A stretch of DNA of 64,000 bases from Rhodococcoides kroppenstedtii (GTDB lineage Bacteria; Actinomycetota; Actinomycetes; Mycobacteriales; Mycobacteriaceae). The translations under genes and the position numbers were made by a program. The notes beneath the pieces are model-generated. The model saw only the letters and a list, made by a program, of their open reading frames with translations, was not told where the DNA came from and made no database searches. The stretch lies in contig NZ_FOJN01000002.1 in assembly GCF_900111805.1 (NCBI RefSeq), positions 186,001 to 250,000 on the forward strand, read 5' to 3'. Below, one piece after another: positions 2,173 to 30,597 of this stretch (position 1 is the stretch's first letter; each line of letters starts with the position of its first letter).

Positions 2173-3333
2173 ATGTCCTCTCGTCCACTTCGCGTCGGTG
2201 TCATCGGTTTCGGCTGGATGGGTCGCGTGCACACGCAGGCCTACGCCCGAGTGCGCCACCACTTCCCGGATCTGCCGCTGACTCCGGTCCTCGCCGCCGT
2301 GGCCGACGACGTGCCCGGCCGTGCTGCCGAGGCCACCGAGGTCTTCGGCTTCGCCGGACACACCACCGACTGGCACGACGTCGTCACCGATCCCGACGTG
2401 GAGGCGGTGTCGGTCACGGCGCCGAATTTCCTGCACCGGGAGATCGGCACCGCCGTCGCTCGCGCGGGCAAGCATCTGTGGATCGAGAAGCCCGTCGGTC
2501 TGACCCGCGACGACGCCGCTGCGGTGGCCGAGGCCGCCGCCGCCGCGAACGTGCGCACTGCCGTCGGCTTCAACTATCGCAACGCCCCGGCCGTCGACCG
2601 AGCGCGCGAGATGATCGCCGCGGGCGAGCTGGGCACGCTGACCCACGCGCGGTTCCGGTTCTTCAGCGACTACGCCGCGCACCCGGACGGCGCGCTGAGT
2701 TGGCGCTTCGAGCGTGCCCGTGGAGGCAACGGTGTGCTCGGCGACCTCGCCTCGCACGCAGCGGATCTCGAGTGGTTCCTGCTCGGGGACATCGGCAGTC
2801 TGGTCGCCGACACCGCGGTTTTCGTTCCCGAGCGCGCCCGGCCTACCGGGGCGACCAGCGGTCACAGTCGCGTCAGCGGCGGTGAGCGGGGCCCGGTCGA
2901 GAACGAGGACTACGCGAGCGCGCAGCTGCGCCTGGTCTCCGGTGCGCGGGCGACGCTCGAGGCCAGCCGCGTCGCGGTCGGCGAACAGAACGCGTACGGC
3001 TTCGAGATCCACGGGACGGCCGGCGCCGTGACGTGGGACTTTCGCCGGATGAACGAGCTCGTCGTCGGCCGCGGTACCGCCTATCAGGACCAGGCGATGT
3101 CCACGGTGTTCGTCGGCCCGGGCGCGGGGGACTACGCCGCGTTCCAGCCGGGGTCGGCGTCCGCGATGGGTTACGACGACCTCAAGGTGATCGAGGCGCG
3201 CAACTTCCTGCAGTCCGTTCACGACGGTCGGCCGCTGGGGGCGACCGTCGAGGACGCGGTGCGGAGTGCGGCGGTCCTCGACGCGATGGTCGAGTCGGTC
3301 GAATCGGGCTCCTGGACGGCTCCCCGCATGTGA
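2173..3333 (+). CDS. Gfo/Idh/MocA-family NAD(P)-dependent oxidoreductase
   Basis: A 386-residue predicted sugar or polyol dehydrogenase. The Rossmann motif GVIGFGWMGRVH is at residues 9-20, the family EKP motif at 105-107, and a SHAADLEWFL segment provides the likely catalytic His in the C-terminal alpha/beta domain. The ATG at 2173 is chosen because the Rossmann motif begins nine residues later and GAAAGG lies upstream; an upstream ATG at 2116 would add residues that do not look like this family. It follows the GntR gene by 101 bp and is co-directional with it and with the transporter. It is one of five paralogues within 12 kb. An inositol, scyllo-inosose or related substrate is likely but cannot be read from the sequence. 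Confidence 0.85.
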   Translation: MSSRPLRVGVIGFGWMGRVHTQAYARVRHHFPDLPLTPVLAAVADDVPGRAAEATEVFGFAGHTTDWHDVVTDPDVEAVSVTAPNFLHREIGTAVARAGKHLWIEKPVGLTRDDAAAVAEAAAAANVRTAVGFNYRNAPAVDRAREMIAAGELGTLTHARFRFFSDYAAHPDGALSWRFERARGGNGVLGDLASHAADLEWFLLGDIGSLVADTAVFVPERARPTGATSGHSRVSGGERGPVENEDYASAQLRLVSGARATLEASRVAVGEQNAYGFEIHGTAGAVTWDFRRMNELVVGRGTAYQDQAMSTVFVGPGAGDYAAFQPGSASAMGYDDLKVIEARNFLQSVHDGRPLGATVEDAVRSAAVLDAMVESVESGSWTAPRM

Positions 3334-3348
3334 GCCGCTGCAGTCCTA

Positions 3349-3393
3349 ATGTCCGAACAAAGTATTGACATTCCGGTGTGACCGGTATTACAT
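3349..3393 (+). promoter_or_regulatory. Promoter and operator of the sugar ABC transporter
   Basis: The operator ATGTCCGAACAA (3349-3360) lies just upstream of a TTGACA -35 (3365-3370). A 17-bp spacer then leads to TTACAT (3388-3393), a plausible -10. The block from AATGTC through TTGACATTCCGGTGTG aligns almost base for base with the iolC promoter on the other strand, which is strong evidence of co-regulation. Transcription would start near 3400, giving a leader of about 60 nt before the ATG at 3464. Confidence 0.72.
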
Positions 3394-3463
3394 CTACTCC
3401 AGGCGAGTGAGCCAGGCTCCTTCTCTCGAGCGAGCCGACCCGCATTTTCCGAGAGGACAATCA

Positions 3464-4495
3464 ATGAAGGTTCGTCAGGGTACGACCAGTGGCGGCCGGG
3501 CCGTCGGGCGTCGGGGTGCCGCACTGGCGCTCGGCGCTGTCGTCGCCGTGTCCGTCGCTGCGTGCTCGAGCACGGGGGGCGCACCGGAATCCAGTGGCGG
3601 CGGCGAGGGTGGGGGCGGCACCGTCGACACCCCTCGCGCCACCATCGCGATGATCACCCACGAGGTTCCCGGTGACACGTTCTGGGACCTCATCCGCAAG
3701 GGTGCGGAAGCCGCCGCGGCGAAGGACAACATCGAGCTGCGCTACTCGGCCGACCCCGAGGCGCCCAACCAGGCCAACCTGGTCCAGAGCGCGATCGACT
3801 CCGACGTCGACGGCATCGCGGTCACCCTGGCCAAGCCCGACGCCATGGCGCCGGCCGTGCAGGCCGCCGAGGCCGCCGGAATCCCCGTGGTGGCCTTCAA
3901 CTCCGGGTACGACGACTGGAAGGCGCAGGGCGTCGGCCAGTACTTCGGTCAGGACGAGACCATCGCCGGCCGGGCCGTGGGTGAGCGCCTGACCTCCGAG
4001 GGTGCCAAGAAGACCCTCTGCATCATCCAGGAGCAGGGCCAGGTCGCGCTCGAATCCCGGTGCGCCGGTGTGACGCAGGGCTTCACGGGCGGCTCCACCG
4101 AGATCCTCAACGTCAACAGCAAGGACATGCCGTCCGTCGAGGCGACCATCACCGCCAAGTTGCAGCAGGATCCGTCCATCGACCACGTGGTCGCCCTCGG
4201 CGCCCCGATCGCGCTCACCGCGGTGCAGTCCAAGGCCAACGCCGGCAGCAACGCCACCGTCGTCACCTTCGACACCAACTCCGCCCTGGTCGACGCCATC
4301 GAAGCCGGTGACGTGGCCTGGGCCGTCGACCAGCAGCCCTACCTCCAGGGCTACCTCGCCGTCGACTCGCTCTGGCTCTACCTGAACAACGGCAACACCA
4401 TCGGTGGCGGCACCCCGGTTCTGACCGGCCCCGCGTTCATCGATTCCTCCAACATCGACGCCGTCGCCGAGTACGCCCGGAACGGCACTCGCTGA
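3464..4495 (+). CDS. Sugar (inositol-type) ABC transporter substrate-binding lipoprotein
   Basis: A 343-residue periplasmic-binding-protein type I (Peripla_BP_4 / ribose-binding) lipoprotein. A twin-Arg-free signal peptide ends in the lipobox VAAC, with the acylated Cys at residue 34, followed by a Ser/Gly-rich linker. The mature domain starts with TIAMITHEVPGDTFWDLIRKG, typical of ribose/inositol/xylitol binders, and includes DGIAVTLAKPDAM. The start ATG at 3464 has GAGAGGA seven bases upstream. It leads the binding protein-permease-ATPase operon, and a strong hairpin follows its stop. Operator sharing with iolC suggests an inositol-like ligand; ribose or another sugar remains possible. Confidence 0.9.
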   Translation: MKVRQGTTSGGRAVGRRGAALALGAVVAVSVAACSSTGGAPESSGGGEGGGGTVDTPRATIAMITHEVPGDTFWDLIRKGAEAAAAKDNIELRYSADPEAPNQANLVQSAIDSDVDGIAVTLAKPDAMAPAVQAAEAAGIPVVAFNSGYDDWKAQGVGQYFGQDETIAGRAVGERLTSEGAKKTLCIIQEQGQVALESRCAGVTQGFTGGSTEILNVNSKDMPSVEATITAKLQQDPSIDHVVALGAPIALTAVQSKANAGSNATVVTFDTNSALVDAIEAGDVAWAVDQQPYLQGYLAVDSLWLYLNNGNTIGGGTPVLTGPAFIDSSNIDAVAEYARNGTR

Positions 4496-25019: not shown

Positions 25020-27023
25020 TCAGGCCGTGAGGTCGTAGACCTGCACCCCGTCGACCGTCTGCGCGGTGAAGATGGACTCCACCCACGCCGCGATCTCGGC
25101 GGCGGGGCCGGAGCTCCGGCCGCCCTGGCCGCCCGCGAGGAAGAAGTGGATCCGCCCCTCGGCGACGTACTGCTGGAACTGCTCGAGCGTCGGCGACGGA
25201 TCGCTGCCGTTGAACCCGCCGATGGGCATTACCGGATCCTGCGTCGCCAGTTGGTAACCCGAGGCGGCGTTGGATCCGACGGTGGCGGCTACCCAGGTGT
25301 ATTGCTCGGAGTCCTGCTCGAGCATCGCGGTCAGCTCGGCGCCGGGGGTGCTGCCGTTCAGCAGTCCGCCCGGGCCGCCGCCTCCGGGAGCACCGTCGGC
25401 CTGCACACCGGGCGGCGGGCCGCCGGCGGGACCGCCTGCGGGGACGCCCCCGGTCGGAGCCCCGGGGACCGTTCCCGCGGCCCGCCCGTCTCCCTGCCCA
25501 CGCCCGTCTCCCTGCCCACGCCCGTCGCCCGGGCCGCCGAAGCCGCCGCGGCCACCCTCGACGGCCGGGCCGGCGGAGACGATCGAGCCGGTGTGCGGAG
25601 TCGCGATGGTGTGTGCGGCGTAGGCCGTGGGACCGGCCAGCCCGGCGATCAGCGCGGCCGCCACCGTGGCGGCGGCGAGGCGACCGCGGGTGAGCCGGGG
25701 CACGACCAGGCCCACCACCGCCACCGCACCGGCGACGACCACGACGATTCTCAGCCACGGAACGAAATCAGCGCTGCGCGACAACAGAATCCACGCGGTC
25801 ACGACGGTCGCGATCACCGCCGCGGCGAGCACGAGTCGCGACGCGATGCGGTCCCGTCGACGCCAGATCACGACAGCCCCGGTGCCCACCAGGGCCGCGA
25901 CGGCGGGAGCGAGCGCCACGGTGTAGTACGCGTGGAAGATCCCGGCCATGAAGCTGAACGTCAGGCCGGTCACCACCAGCCAGAGACCCCACAGCACCAG
26001 TCCGGCGCGCAACCCGTCCGTGCGGGGCGCCCGGCCGCGGCCGACCAGTGCGGCGAGTCCGAGGATCAGCGCGGCCGGAATCAGCCAGGCGATCTGACCG
26101 CCCTGAGCCGCCTCGAACAGGCGGAGAATGCCCGTCTCGCCCCACTGGCCGCCGCGCCCACCGCCACCGCCGGGAACGACGGAGCCGGTCTCCTCACCGT
26201 TCAGACGGCCCAGACCGTTGTATCCGAGCGTGAGCTCGAGAATCGAATTGTTCTGCGACCCACCGATCCACGGCCTCGACGAGGCGGGCCAGAGCTCGAC
26301 GACGGCGATCCACCACCCGGCGGTGACGACGGCGGCACCGAGCGCGGCGACCAGCTGCCCGAGGCGGCGGGGCAGCGAGACCGGACCGGCGAGGACGTAG
26401 GTGAGCGCGATGGGCGGCACCACCAGCATGACCTGCAGCTGCTTGGTCAGGAACCCGGCGCCCACCGCGACGCCGGCCACGACGAGCCAACGGGTGCGAC
26501 CGTCGTCCACGGCGCGCAGCGCAGCCCACACCGCGACGATCATGAGCAACACCAGCAGAGCGTCGGGGTTGTCGAACCGGAACATCAGCGCCGCGACGGG
26601 TGTCAGTGCGAGGGTGAGTCCGGCGAGCAGTCCGGCGGCCGGGCCCGCGTGGCGGCGCACCGTGCGCCATAGCAATGCCACCGAGGCCGCCCCGATGATC
26701 ACCTGCGGTGCGAGCACCGACCAGGAGTTCAGGCCGAACAGGCGCACAGACAATCCCATGACCCACAAAGACATCGGCGGTTTGTCCACCGTGATGGAGT
26801 TCGCGGCGTCCGAGGACCCGAAGAAGAAGGCCGTCCAGGACTGCGATCCCGCCTGCACGGCAGCGGCGTAGAAGGAGTTGCCCCATCCGCTCGCCGAGAG
26901 GTTCACCAGGTAGGCGACGGCGGTGCCGACGATCAGCGCGATCGCGGCGGGCGTCTCCCAGTGCGGTGCCCGGCGAAAGGGTGCGGGGGTGGGGGCGGGC
27001 CGAGAGGGCAGCAGGGTGGTCAT
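25020..27023 (-). CDS. Membrane glycosyltransferase (ArnT/YkcB-like, GT39 superfamily)
   Basis: A 667-residue polytopic membrane protein. The first extracytoplasmic loop has NSFYAAAVQAGSQSW and DKPPMSLWV, the Asp-containing motif expected for polyprenyl-phosphate-dependent glycosyltransferases. About ten to twelve hydrophobic helices run to residue 470, then a Gly/Pro-rich linker with GDGRGQ repeats. A conserved C-terminal extracytoplasmic domain follows (MPIGGFNGSDPSPTLEQF). This is the YkcB-type architecture. It should transfer a sugar from a lipid carrier to a cell-envelope acceptor. Its ATG overlaps the GT2 gene stop (ATGA), matching the bacterial pairing of a YkcC-type sugar-lipid synthase with a YkcB-type transferase. 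Confidence 0.85.
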   Translation of the reverse strand: MTTLLPSRPAPTPAPFRRAPHWETPAAIALIVGTAVAYLVNLSASGWGNSFYAAAVQAGSQSWTAFFFGSSDAANSITVDKPPMSLWVMGLSVRLFGLNSWSVLAPQVIIGAASVALLWRTVRRHAGPAAGLLAGLTLALTPVAALMFRFDNPDALLVLLMIVAVWAALRAVDDGRTRWLVVAGVAVGAGFLTKQLQVMLVVPPIALTYVLAGPVSLPRRLGQLVAALGAAVVTAGWWIAVVELWPASSRPWIGGSQNNSILELTLGYNGLGRLNGEETGSVVPGGGGGRGGQWGETGILRLFEAAQGGQIAWLIPAALILGLAALVGRGRAPRTDGLRAGLVLWGLWLVVTGLTFSFMAGIFHAYYTVALAPAVAALVGTGAVVIWRRRDRIASRLVLAAAVIATVVTAWILLSRSADFVPWLRIVVVVAGAVAVVGLVVPRLTRGRLAAATVAAALIAGLAGPTAYAAHTIATPHTGSIVSAGPAVEGGRGGFGGPGDGRGQGDGRGQGDGRAAGTVPGAPTGGVPAGGPAGGPPPGVQADGAPGGGGPGGLLNGSTPGAELTAMLEQDSEQYTWVAATVGSNAASGYQLATQDPVMPIGGFNGSDPSPTLEQFQQYVAEGRIHFFLAGGQGGRSSGPAAEIAAWVESIFTAQTVDGVQVYDLTA
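25485..25520 (-). repeat. Two tandem 18-bp repeats encoding GDGRGQ
   Basis: CCCGTCTCCCTGCCCACG occurs twice head to tail, with a partial third copy after. It encodes repeated GDGRGQ in the Gly-rich linker of the glycosyltransferase. Likely a slippage-prone, length-variable linker. Confidence 0.8.
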
Positions 27024-28276
27024 CGAACGAGGTCCTTTCCGGACGGACGAGTGGCGGGGGAGCGGAACACCCGGCGAAGGGCGACGAATCGGATGACGGT
27101 GGCGACGGCGTTGGCCAGGACCAGGACCGTCAGTTCGAGGTGCTTCGACGCGTCCGGGCTCCAGCGGTGCAGCAGCAGAAGGGATCCCGCGGTCACCGCC
27201 CAGCCGAGCGCGAAGATCGCCAGGCCCTGCAGGTGGTGACCGACGGCACCCGCTGCCCCGCGGACCCCGAAGGTGACGGCGCGGTTGGCCGCGGTGTTGA
27301 GGACGGCCGTCACCGCGAGGGCGAGGAGGTTGCTCACCTGGGCTCCGAGCACGGGGTGGAGCAGTAGGTAGAGCACGGCGTACGCGATCGTGCTGAGCAC
27401 CCCGATCGCGGCGAAGCGCACCAGTTGGCCGACCATGCCCACCGGCACCCCCTCGACCAGTGGCTCCCGCCCGACGCTCCGGCGCAGATCGCCGAGCGGC
27501 AACGCGCCCGTCGCCAGCGCGCGGCCGACGCGCCAGCATCCCTTCAGATCGGCGACCGCGGTGGCGACGATGTCGACGGTCGAATCCGGATCGTCGACCC
27601 AGTCGACCGGGACCTCGTGGATGCGCAGGCCGGCTCGCTCGGCCAGAACCAGCAGTTCCGTATCGAAGAACCAGCCGGTGTCCTGCACCAGCGGCAGGAG
27701 TTCCCGAGCGACATCGGTGCGCATCGCCTTGAAGCCGCACTGAGCGTCCGAGAACCGGACGCGCAGCGACGTCCGCAGGATGAGGTTGTAACCGCGAGAG
27801 ACGATCTCCCGCTTGGGACCTCGGACGACCCGTGACTGTGGGGCGAGCCGTGACCCGATGGCGACGTCGGAGTGTCCCGACGCCAGCGGGGCCAGGAGAG
27901 GGAGCAACGCGCGCAGGTCCGTCGAGAGGTCGACGTCCATGTACGCGACGATCGTGGCCGACGACGCCCGCCAGACCGCGTCGAGAGCGCGTCCTCGGCC
28001 CTTGAGGTCGAGTCGGACGACCTCCACGCGGTCCAGCTCGGCGGCGAGGGCCGCGGCGACGACGGGCGTGTCGTCGGTGCTGGCGTTGTCCGCGACGACG
28101 ATGCGGGTGCGGTAGGGCACGTGGTCGCCCAGGTGCCGGTCCAGACGCCGGATGCTCTCCTCGAGGACGTCGGCCTCGTTGTACACGGGGACGACGATGT
28201 CGACGGTGACGGCCGTGGCCGGGGGTCCGTCCGGGTGCCTCGCGAGCCGGCCGGTAGCGACGTGATCGGTGGTCAT
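27020..28276 (-). CDS. GT2 family glycosyltransferase with C-terminal GtrA domain
   Basis: A 418-residue fusion. A DPM1-like GT-A domain (about residues 20-265) has VDIVVPVYNEADVLEESI, YMDVDLSTDL (the DxD region) and QCGFKAMR. A GtrA-like four-helix membrane domain (about 290-405) follows. The GT2 part would load a sugar onto undecaprenyl/decaprenyl phosphate and the GtrA part help flip it. It overlaps the GT39 gene and is transcribed away from the two-component system across a 156-bp spacer holding a phased palindrome array. Close in design to YkcC/YkoT with a GtrA fusion. Confidence 0.87.
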   Translation of the reverse strand: MTTDHVATGRLARHPDGPPATAVTVDIVVPVYNEADVLEESIRRLDRHLGDHVPYRTRIVVADNASTDDTPVVAAALAAELDRVEVVRLDLKGRGRALDAVWRASSATIVAYMDVDLSTDLRALLPLLAPLASGHSDVAIGSRLAPQSRVVRGPKREIVSRGYNLILRTSLRVRFSDAQCGFKAMRTDVARELLPLVQDTGWFFDTELLVLAERAGLRIHEVPVDWVDDPDSTVDIVATAVADLKGCWRVGRALATGALPLGDLRRSVGREPLVEGVPVGMVGQLVRFAAIGVLSTIAYAVLYLLLHPVLGAQVSNLLALAVTAVLNTAANRAVTFGVRGAAGAVGHHLQGLAIFALGWAVTAGSLLLLHRWSPDASKHLELTVLVLANAVATVIRFVALRRVFRSPATRPSGKDLVR

Positions 28277-28299: not shown

Positions 28300-28399
28300 C
28301 CCGGGTCGGGCCCGGGTGCTCCCCGGGAGTCACCCGGGAGTTCTCCTGGCCGGAACCGGCCGCGATCGGCTCCCGGGAAGTTCCCGGGTTCGTCCCGGG
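28300..28399. repeat. Helically phased CCCGGG array in the divergent regulatory spacer
   Basis: Seven perfect CCCGGG palindromes begin at 28300, 28311, 28322 and 28333, then at 28372, 28383 and 28394. Steps are exactly 11 bp within each group, and the groups are 39 bp apart (about 3.5 steps). Degenerate copies (TCCTGG at 28344, ACCGGC at 28355) continue the first phase. OmpR/PhoB-type regulators bind direct repeats about 11 bp apart, so this is a likely operator array for the response regulator at 28433 acting on itself and on the divergent glycosyltransferase operon. Confidence 0.7.
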
Positions 28400-28432
28400 A
28401 AACACACGGAGTCGAGGTCGATCCTGGGCGTC

Positions 28433-29167
28433 ATGAGCGAGAATGCCGTGGTGACGATCGATCGAGCTGCCGGCGCCCCCGAGGCGACGGTCCTGGTGGT
28501 CGACGACGAGCCGACCATCGTGGAGTTGCTCGCTGTCAGTCTGAAGTTCCAGGGCTTCGAGGTGCACACGGCCCGCAGCGGTCCGGCGGCGATCGACGTG
28601 GCGCGCAGCCTGCGCCCGGACGCCCTGATTCTCGACGTCATGATGCCGGACATGGATGGGTTCGGGCTGCTGCGGCGACTCCGGGCCGACGGCATCGACG
28701 CGCCGGTGCTGTTCCTCACCGCGCGGGATGCGGTGGAGGACAAGGTCACCGGGCTGACGATGGGGGCCGACGACTACGTCACCAAGCCGTTCAGCCTCGA
28801 GGAGCTCGTGGCGCGGCTCCGGGTGATTCTCCGTCGTCGTTCTCCGGGGACCGAACCGCAGCCGTCCCGGCTCACGTTTGCCGACATCGAGCTCGACGAC
28901 GACACGCGGGAGGTGTGGAAGGCCGGGGAGCCGGTTTCCCTGTCGCCCACCGAGTTCACCCTGCTGCGGTACTTCATGGTCAACGCCGGAACGGTGCTCT
29001 CGAAGCCGCGCATCCTCGATCACGTGTGGCACTACGACTTCGGCGGCGAGGTCGGTGTGGTCGAGTCGTACGTGTCCTACCTGCGGCGCAAGATCGACAC
29101 CACCGAACCGCGCCTGCTGCACACACTCCGCGGGGTGGGGTACGTGATGCGGATGCCGCGGCGGTGA
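28433..29167 (+). CDS. OmpR/PhoB-family response regulator
   Basis: A 244-residue response regulator. The receiver domain has Asp pair DDE (24-26), phospho-acceptor Asp68 in LILDVMMPD, Thr96 and Lys118 in YVTKPF. A winged-helix trans_reg_C DNA-binding domain fills about 145-243 (SLSPTEFTLLRYFM, VESYVSYLRRKID, LRGVGYVMR). ATG at 28433 has only a distant GAGG. Its stop overlaps the kinase start (GTGA), a coupled pair. The phased CCCGGG array upstream is the likely binding site. The pairing with YkcB/YkcC-type genes recalls ykoGH-ykoST of Bacillus. Confidence 0.94.
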   Translation: MSENAVVTIDRAAGAPEATVLVVDDEPTIVELLAVSLKFQGFEVHTARSGPAAIDVARSLRPDALILDVMMPDMDGFGLLRRLRADGIDAPVLFLTARDAVEDKVTGLTMGADDYVTKPFSLEELVARLRVILRRRSPGTEPQPSRLTFADIELDDDTREVWKAGEPVSLSPTEFTLLRYFMVNAGTVLSKPRILDHVWHYDFGGEVGVVESYVSYLRRKIDTTEPRLLHTLRGVGYVMRMPRR

Positions 29168-30597
29168 GGGGCCCCGGATCCGTCCCGCTGCGGGTCACCC
29201 TGGTCGCGGCGTTGCTGCTTTTGGTCGCGGTGGGTCTCGCGGCCTCCGGACTCGCGGTGACCACCGCATTGCAGAACACCCTGCTGGCCCGCGTGGACAC
29301 GCAACTCGAGGAGGCCGCGTCCGGGTGGGCACGCCCGCGCGAGGACCGCCCACCCCCGCCGTCGGGTGACATCGGGCCGGGTCGCCCGCCGACGTCGTTC
29401 TACGTCCGGTCCGTCACCGCCGACGGCACCGTGCGCACGTCGATCAACGACAACTCCTCGCCGGGACCGGATCTCACCGCGGCCGGGTCCCCCACCCCGG
29501 TGACGGTGGGATCGGCGGGCGGTGGCGACGAGCAGTGGCGCGTGGTCACCGTCTCGAACCAGGACGGGTCGACCACCGTCGGCGTGTCCCTGGCGGAGAA
29601 CGCCGCGATCGTCGGACGCCTGGTCGTGTTGGAGGTCTCGATCGGCGCCGGCGTCCTGGTCGTGCTGGGCGTCGTGGCCTGGTGGGTGGTGCGACGCAGC
29701 CTGCGTCCGCTGCGGGAGGTGGAGGCCACGGCGGAGGCGATCGCCGCGGGAGACCTGCATCGCCGTGTTCCCGAACGGGATCCGCGCACCGAGGTCGGTC
29801 GGTTGTCGGCCGCGCTCAACGGCATGCTGGCGCAGATCCAGCAGGCTGTCGCCGAGTCCGCGGCCTCGGAACGCACGGCGCGGGAATCCGAGGATCGGAT
29901 GCGACGGTTCGTCGCCGACGCGTCGCACGAACTCCGGACCCCACTGACCACCATCCGCGGGTTCGCCGAGTTGTATCGGCAGGGCGCGACCACCGACGTC
30001 GAGCTGATCATGACCAGGATCGGCGGCGAGGCGGCACGGATGGGGATGCTGGTGGAGGACCTCGTGATGCTCGCGCGTCTGGACGCGGAACGTCCTGTCG
30101 CCAGCGCACCCGTCGACCTGTTGCAGATCGCGGCCGACTCCGTCCACGACGCCGCCGCCTCGGCCCCCGACCGGACCGTGAACCTGGAGGTGCTGCCGAA
30201 CAGCGGTGTCCCGGAGGTTCTCGGGGACGACGCGCGGCTGCGCCAGGTGCTGGGCAATCTGGTGAGCAACGCGCTGCGTCACACGCCGCCCTCAGCGGTG
30301 GTCACGGTGGCCGTGGGGACGGTGGGGGAGTCGGCGATTCTCCAGGTGCGCGACACCGGGCCGGGACTGTCCGACGAGGACGCGACACGCGTCTTCGAGC
30401 GCTTCTACCGAGCCGACCGCTCACGCACGCGCGAGAGCGGCGGCAGCGGGCTCGGACTGTCCATCGTGGCGGCTCTCGTCGCCGCACACGAGGGTCGCGT
30501 CACGGTCGACTCGGCGCTCGGTCGGGGGGCGACCTTCACCGTCGAACTTCCTCTGCTGCAGCGTGAGTCGACGACGGGGTTGCGGACGGAGGTCTGA
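29164..30597 (+). CDS. Sensor histidine kinase (HAMP-HisKA-HATPase)
   Basis: A 477-residue membrane kinase. One helix (about 11-33) leads to an extracytoplasmic sensor region of about 120 residues rich in Pro, Gly and Asp; a second helix follows (about 153-175), then HAMP (176-230). HisKA has phospho-His255 in DASHELRTPL. The HATPase domain has the N box NLVSNALRH, G1 DTGPGL and G2 GGSGLGLSIV. The GTG at 29164 overlaps the response-regulator stop. It probably senses an envelope signal; the ligand is unknown. Confidence 0.93.
   Translation: MRGPGSVPLRVTLVAALLLLVAVGLAASGLAVTTALQNTLLARVDTQLEEAASGWARPREDRPPPPSGDIGPGRPPTSFYVRSVTADGTVRTSINDNSSPGPDLTAAGSPTPVTVGSAGGGDEQWRVVTVSNQDGSTTVGVSLAENAAIVGRLVVLEVSIGAGVLVVLGVVAWWVVRRSLRPLREVEATAEAIAAGDLHRRVPERDPRTEVGRLSAALNGMLAQIQQAVAESAASERTARESEDRMRRFVADASHELRTPLTTIRGFAELYRQGATTDVELIMTRIGGEAARMGMLVEDLVMLARLDAERPVASAPVDLLQIAADSVHDAAASAPDRTVNLEVLPNSGVPEVLGDDARLRQVLGNLVSNALRHTPPSAVVTVAVGTVGESAILQVRDTGPGLSDEDATRVFERFYRADRSRTRESGGSGLGLSIVAALVAAHEGRVTVDSALGRGATFTVELPLLQRESTTGLRTEV

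Follow-up and report, generated by a model that had tools for sequence, protein, structure and literature searches.

Introduction

The closest described system is the PhoP regulator of Mycobacterium tuberculosis, which, according to the published account (PMC4832192), binds TCACAGC-n4-TCACAGC as a head-to-tail dimer and needs the 4-bp spacer between the half-sites. Its affinity for sites of two, three and four units is given there as 19.2, 4.6 and 2.2 nM, respectively, and at the middle three base pairs of the half-site both bases contact the protein. An ahpC site with one half reading TCACgGC was bound at 103.8 nM, so that G at position 5 is tolerated there by M. tuberculosis PhoP. A literature search whose coverage lacks most subscription journals found no report of a Rhodococcus PhoP box or of a CCCGGG array.

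Here we analysed a 64,000-nucleotide stretch of DNA from Rhodococcoides kroppenstedtii (the window), in which a 156-bp intergenic region carrying a CCCGGG array separates a divergent glycosyltransferase operon from the two-component system phoPR. From sequence comparison we give a probability of about 0.68 to the reading that this array is a pair of tandem operators for the neighbouring PhoP, set back to back and built from a derived variant of the PhoP box.

Results

A CCCGGG array between phoPR and a glycosyltransferase operon

The genes and predicted elements of the region are as follows.

25020..27023, minus strand: PMT_2/YkcB-like membrane glycosyltransferase gene, next in the glycosyltransferase operon (domain match)
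27020..28276, minus strand: GT2 glycosyltransferase with a membrane domain, divergent from phoP (Glycos_transf_2 and GtrA_DPMS_TM)
28300..28339, minus strand: predicted glycosyltransferase-facing operator, four 7-bp units at 11-bp phase, with orthologous four-unit CAG operators in the genus
28333-28339 TCCCGGG, 28322-28328 TCCCGGG, 28311-28317 ACCCGGG and 28300-28306 ACCCGGG, minus strand: units of the glycosyltransferase-facing operator
28345..28364, no strand: insertion of about 20 bp between the operators, from alignment, the exact edges depending on the alignment
28371..28410, plus strand: predicted phoP-facing operator, four units at 11-bp phase, located where relatives have their TCACAGC-type box
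28371-28377, 28382-28388 and 28393-28399, all TCCCGGG, and 28404-28410 ACACGGA, plus strand: units of the phoP-facing operator
28420..28425, plus strand: possible -10 element with the sequence GATCCT, read by eye 7 nt upstream of the phoP start
28433..29167, plus strand: phoP-type response regulator of the OmpR family (Response_reg and Trans_reg_C)
29164..30597, plus strand: phoR-type sensor histidine kinase, overlapping phoP (HAMP, HisKA, HATPase_c)

The best PDB match of the regulator was M. tuberculosis PhoP (E 1.6e-118), the next other regulator being PrrA (4e-53), and on its domain and PDB matches it belongs to the PhoP group, having a receiver and a winged-helix domain and M. tuberculosis PhoP as its closest match; the NCBIfam models shown for it all scored below their own cut-offs. 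Within the PMT-like gene, an 18-bp tandem repeat at 25483-25530 encodes a repeated Gly/Arg/Gln/Asp stretch.

CCCGGG starts at 28300, 28311, 28322 and 28333 and again at 28372, 28383 and 28394, which makes seven copies in two 11-bp runs, with every position and the step exactly as claimed in the first-pass annotation. In 200,000 first-order Markov simulations of the 156-bp region, the composition of the window gave a mean of 0.16 copies and a maximum of 4, so that 7 was never reached; under the composition of the region itself, 7 or more copies arose at a frequency of 5e-6 and five pairs at 11 bp never. The CCCGGG array is real and lies far beyond chance. Genome-wide, CCCGGG-n5-CCCGGG occurs at seven places, five of them inside the array and two elsewhere. 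Among the three sister species the CCCGGG columns were invariant throughout (42 of 42), as against 64 of 93 other columns (Fisher p 6e-6), and AT content was 14% in the units and 36% in the spacers; GC-rich units among less GC-rich spacers, together with unit columns invariant between sisters, argue against a drift of base composition. Rfam, sigma-70 and terminator scans of the intergenic region found nothing, and Tandem Repeats Finder at a score of 40 did not report the array.

Three CCCGGG at 11-bp steps were found in 14 of 397 genomes of the order (3 for the reversed control), three of the 14 being the window's clade, in a sample that holds five members of the genus. In ten of the eleven other genomes, taken at one locus each, neither phoPR nor the glycosyltransferase gene lay beside the array, as judged from reading frames read by eye in 1.5-kb flanks and with L224 and a second site of G100 set aside. 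In another genus of the order, three copies of CCCGGG at 11-bp steps are conserved in two loci (L221 and L222, around 1501), where they lie between the genes for EF-Tu and ribosomal protein S10.

Two rows of four units in mirror-image layout

Read with its direction, the array resolves into two four-unit rows, both strict direct repeats with a 4-bp spacer. The eighth unit, ACACGGA (28404-28410), is degenerate and in phase, and had been missing from the first-pass annotation. From unit 1 to the start codon the distance is 63 bp in the glycosyltransferase-facing row and 62 bp in the phoP-facing row, a mirror-image layout. The step from one unit group to the other measures 39 bp in this species and 19 bp in each of the two sisters, a difference explained by the insertion of about 20 bp (28345..28364) between the operators, which is absent in both sister species. 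A half-step shift between the groups had been proposed as a device placing two promoters on opposite faces of the DNA; with 39 bp here against 19 bp in the sisters the shift is not conserved, and its functional role is left unsupported. The supposed degenerate copies at 28344 (TCCTGG) and 28355 (ACCGGC) match CCCGGG at 4 of 6 bases, lie in or at the edge of the 20-bp stretch that the sisters lack, and were dropped.

At the candidate -10 element GATCCT (28420..28425) the sigma-70 scan found nothing; by eye, relatives have a -10-like sequence, GATGAT or CATGAT, near the same place. As a -10 element, GATCCT suggests, from the sequence, a leaderless phoP transcript with units 3 and 4 lying over the -35 region.

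Four-unit operators at phoP and at the glycosyltransferase gene in relatives

Upstream of phoP, TCACAGC-like units at 11-bp phase are present in Rhodococcoides, Rhodococcus, Nocardia, Gordonia, Williamsia and others. The core was CAG in 131 of 138 scored units from 46 loci, a set that includes four Rhodococcoides genomes also counted elsewhere (L038, L039, L040, L051) and leaves aside L035-L037, as duplicates of counted genus loci, and L084-L114, with a regulator identity of 60% or less. The other seven units comprise four with other triplets and three with CGG (L060 twice, L065 once); these three immediately precede a CAG box and appear to be errors of register. On the phoP side of the window's species and its sisters (G000; G001, G002), three TCCCGGG are followed by ACACGGA, GCACGGA or GCACGGG.

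The orthologous glycosyltransferase gene in the genus also has a four-unit operator at 11-bp phase, for example TCCCAGG-TGCCAGG-TCGCAGC-GTCCAGC. In the small set of Williamsia, Prescottella and Antrihabitans loci compared by eye, most show similar boxes before the gene. In other members of the genus this gene lies kilobases from phoP and is divergent from another gene, whose counterpart in one genome (G029) encodes a HIT-domain protein. Rows of four CAG[G/C] units in 11-bp phase were matched 55 times in 37 Rhodococcoides genomes, as against 14 times for the reversed pattern; 21 lay within 200 bp upstream of phoP, 26 within the same distance upstream of the glycosyltransferase gene and 8 elsewhere, the last being background level, with one of them an orphan box of G029. 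Strong four-unit operators thus form a set of two members in the genus, one at each of these genes. Counted by genome, CAG operators were found at phoP and at the glycosyltransferase gene in 30 other members of the genus each (24 scored, 6 by eye). By position, the two rows in the window descend from PhoP-type boxes at the same genes.

The first-pass annotation had suggested looking for the array in relatives, and there orthologous four-unit, 11-bp operators indeed stand at both genes, even where these are kilobases apart. Its proposal that the 11-bp phase reflects OmpR/PhoB-type tandem units next to such a regulator, which is of PhoP type, is likewise backed by the comparison. Operators for both directions are supported as well, though they are better described as two separate ones on opposite strands than as a single array.

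Two genomes lack the regulator or part of it. G029 is the only member of the genus without a phoP orthologue, its best remaining regulator being 49% identical, and it gave no phoR match at 1e-90 and no glycosyltransferase match at 1e-80; this joint absence would count in favour of a phoP-glycosyltransferase regulon. It carries an orphan four-unit PhoP-type box at about 1511-1553 of L253 (G029:C30:402014-402053), with the HIT gene (3096-3542) retained nearby, and since both are still present the loss looks recent. In G034 (G034:C36:170254-171710) the phoP match breaks off after residue 167; three bases further on, the phoR match sets in at residue 135. PhoP thus lacks its DNA-binding domain there and the sensor part of phoR is missing too, and both CAG operators are kept despite the shortened phoP. 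As G029 and G034 show that boxes can outlive the regulator, finding a box is poor evidence that it is still in use.

The core switch from CAG to CGG

Compared with the published consensus TCACAGC, TCCCGGG is changed at positions 3, 5 and 7, the first two of which belong to the three central ones. The half-sites here therefore depart from TCACAGC, and above all from its central ACA, so that the array is a derived variant and not a canonical PhoP box. In 24 other genomes of the genus for each operator, position 5 was A in 95 of 96 glycosyltransferase-operator units and in 68 of 72 phoP-operator units and G in none, the five exceptions (one and four units, respectively) being register errors of the scorer; the twelve promoters read by eye (6 phoP, 6 glycosyltransferase) were CAG. 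The same position was G in all 24 glycosyltransferase-operator units of the six array species and in all 12 phoP-operator units of the window's clade. In the window's species the core is CGG in all eight units, whereby most of them become CCCGGG palindromes, and here and in the two sisters the glycosyltransferase-PMT block adjoins phoP divergently, with both operators back to back.

An intermediate clade (G011, G012, G016) combines both forms: its glycosyltransferase operator reads TCCCGGG-TCCCGGG-[CG]CCCGGG-TCCCGGG, with CGG in 4 of 4 units, and its phoP operator has CAG, CAG, CCCCGGG and CAG in one phase. We considered CCCGGG as a trait of the phoP promoter only and rejected it, as the four-copy array of these three genomes stands at the glycosyltransferase gene, about 3.5 kb from phoP.

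In the regulator itself the recognition helix VVESYVSYLRRK is kept, with Gly in place of Asn212 of M. tuberculosis PhoP and His in place of Arg204, as in 30 Rhodococcoides loci. A change in this helix as the cause of CCCGGG was rejected, since CAG-box species have the same helix including Gly at Asn212. Comparison of the array species with 24 species of the genus that have CAG boxes gave no fixed difference at the reported DNA-contacting residues of PhoP, and consequently no PhoP change obviously explains the uniform A-to-G switch in eight units. The differences in the DNA-binding domain common to both array clades are at Thr224 and Pro226 (window numbering), in the turn that follows the recognition helix; further shared differences lie in the linker and in the receiver domain.

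Related motifs occur at other promoters. A CAG-type pair precedes a yceI-like gene (L174, 954-970; L189-L218) in 29 of 30 loci, L204 showing another stretch, and the six array species are included. A genome-wide CAG-to-CGG switch is unsupported, because this pair is kept in 6 of 6 array species. The yceI box also persists in the phoP-less G029; as an orphan phoP-type box persists there too, this says little about its use by PhoP. In the three sisters, a TCCCGGG-n4-TCCCGGG pair is conserved between greA and an ApbE-like gene (L168, 800-816; L169, L170), and none was found before the ApbE-like homologue in G011, G012 and G016. A periplasmic-binding-protein gene is preceded by TCACAGTAGGGTCACAG, or by TCACAGTAAGG... 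in the second clade (L175, 950-966, and L178); among the 37 genomes, the exact TCACAGTAGGGTCACAG/TCACAGTAAGG patterns occur only in the six array species.

Discussion

On the reading that the array is a pair of PhoP operators, each row would hold phosphorylated PhoP in head-to-tail order, its four 7-bp half-sites following one another every 11 bp. The right-facing row would control phoPR itself, an autoregulation with units over the -35 region, and the left-facing row the GT2/GtrA-PMT glycosyltransferase operon. All half-site cores of the window's clade have changed from CAG to CGG, turning most half-sites into CCCGGG palindromes, and four-fold cooperativity may let PhoP use the CGG half-sites, for which the tighter multi-unit binding and the bound ahpC TCACgGC half-site of PMC4832192 give grounds. 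Binding, presumably by PhoP, would activate.

A more tentative proposal, to which we give well under even odds, is that PhoP changed its preferred core from CAG to CGG and that the operators followed in steps, a co-evolution caught midway. Its steps would be seen in living species: all units CAG; the glycosyltransferase operator and one of four phoP units changed; and all eight changed. The driver would then lie outside the known DNA-contact residues, Thr224 and Pro226 being candidates.

The main rival to the PhoP operators, in our judgement unlikely, is a takeover in this subclade: a different regulator that reads CCCGGG would have displaced PhoP from both operators, with the inherited 11-bp layout retained, and PhoP would no longer bind there. 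That all units changed at the same, otherwise near-invariant base points to a changed reader; the contact residues given in PMC4832192 show no fixed difference; and a third TCCCGGG-n4-TCCCGGG pair, before the ApbE-like gene, is conserved in the three sisters. Nevertheless, position, unit number and orientation are those of a PhoP-type operator, and the mixed CAG and CCCCGGG units in one phase at phoP of the intermediate clade fit one reader better. Less probable by a good deal is a dual use, in which PhoP still binds weakly and an additional protein that binds the CCCGGG palindrome, a nucleoid or methylation factor for instance, was selected on the same units. The symmetry of CCCGGG and its depletion in the window are what a protein or enzyme reading this sequence would lead one to expect: 35 copies were observed where shuffles predict 66.5, and outside the intergenic region, on both strands of the window, 56 where 100 are expected, about half the expected frequency. 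In short stretches, however, the depletion is slight, with 18 against 21.9 in the sisters (arrays masked) and 34 against 38.6 in the intermediate clade. A functionless GC-biased minisatellite of neutral or mutational origin is very improbable. In its favour are the high GC content (71% in the window) and the simple CCCGGG tandem repeats that certain other genomes of the order contain. Against it, the spacers vary from unit to unit, between species the units are better conserved than the spacers, the AT contrast between units and spacers shows that GC did not rise generally, Tandem Repeats Finder did not report the array, and CAG-form four-unit operators stand at the same places in relatives.

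Taken as PhoP operators, the rows would define a small candidate regulon of phoPR and a single glycosyltransferase operon, with a flip at an otherwise near-invariant base in all repeats of its operators. They would also link a PhoPR-type system, throughout the genus, with a glycosyltransferase operon of GtrA/PMT type. With intermediate species still living, the joint change of a conserved two-component regulator and its sites becomes testable, as does the role of tandem cooperativity as a buffer of site change.

Among known systems, the CAG-type boxes upstream of phoP in relatives resemble the phoP-facing row in their orthologous gene and their phase and, as measured in Rhodococcoides, lie at a similar distance from the start codon, but their core is CAG and not CGG. 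With the M. tuberculosis PhoP box, as described in PMC4832192, both rows share 7-bp units, the 4-bp spacer, the 11-bp phase and the tandem head-to-tail arrangement, and that box too can be extended to three or four units; compared with it, CGG stands here in 8 of 8 units, position 3 is changed from A to C in seven, the units are palindromic, and two operators, known from their sequence, stand back to back. The E. coli pho box and the Streptomyces PhoP site GTTCACC-n4-GTTCACC are, as listed in that source, likewise direct repeats with about one unit per helical turn, and they differ in their half-site sequences from the palindromic units found here.
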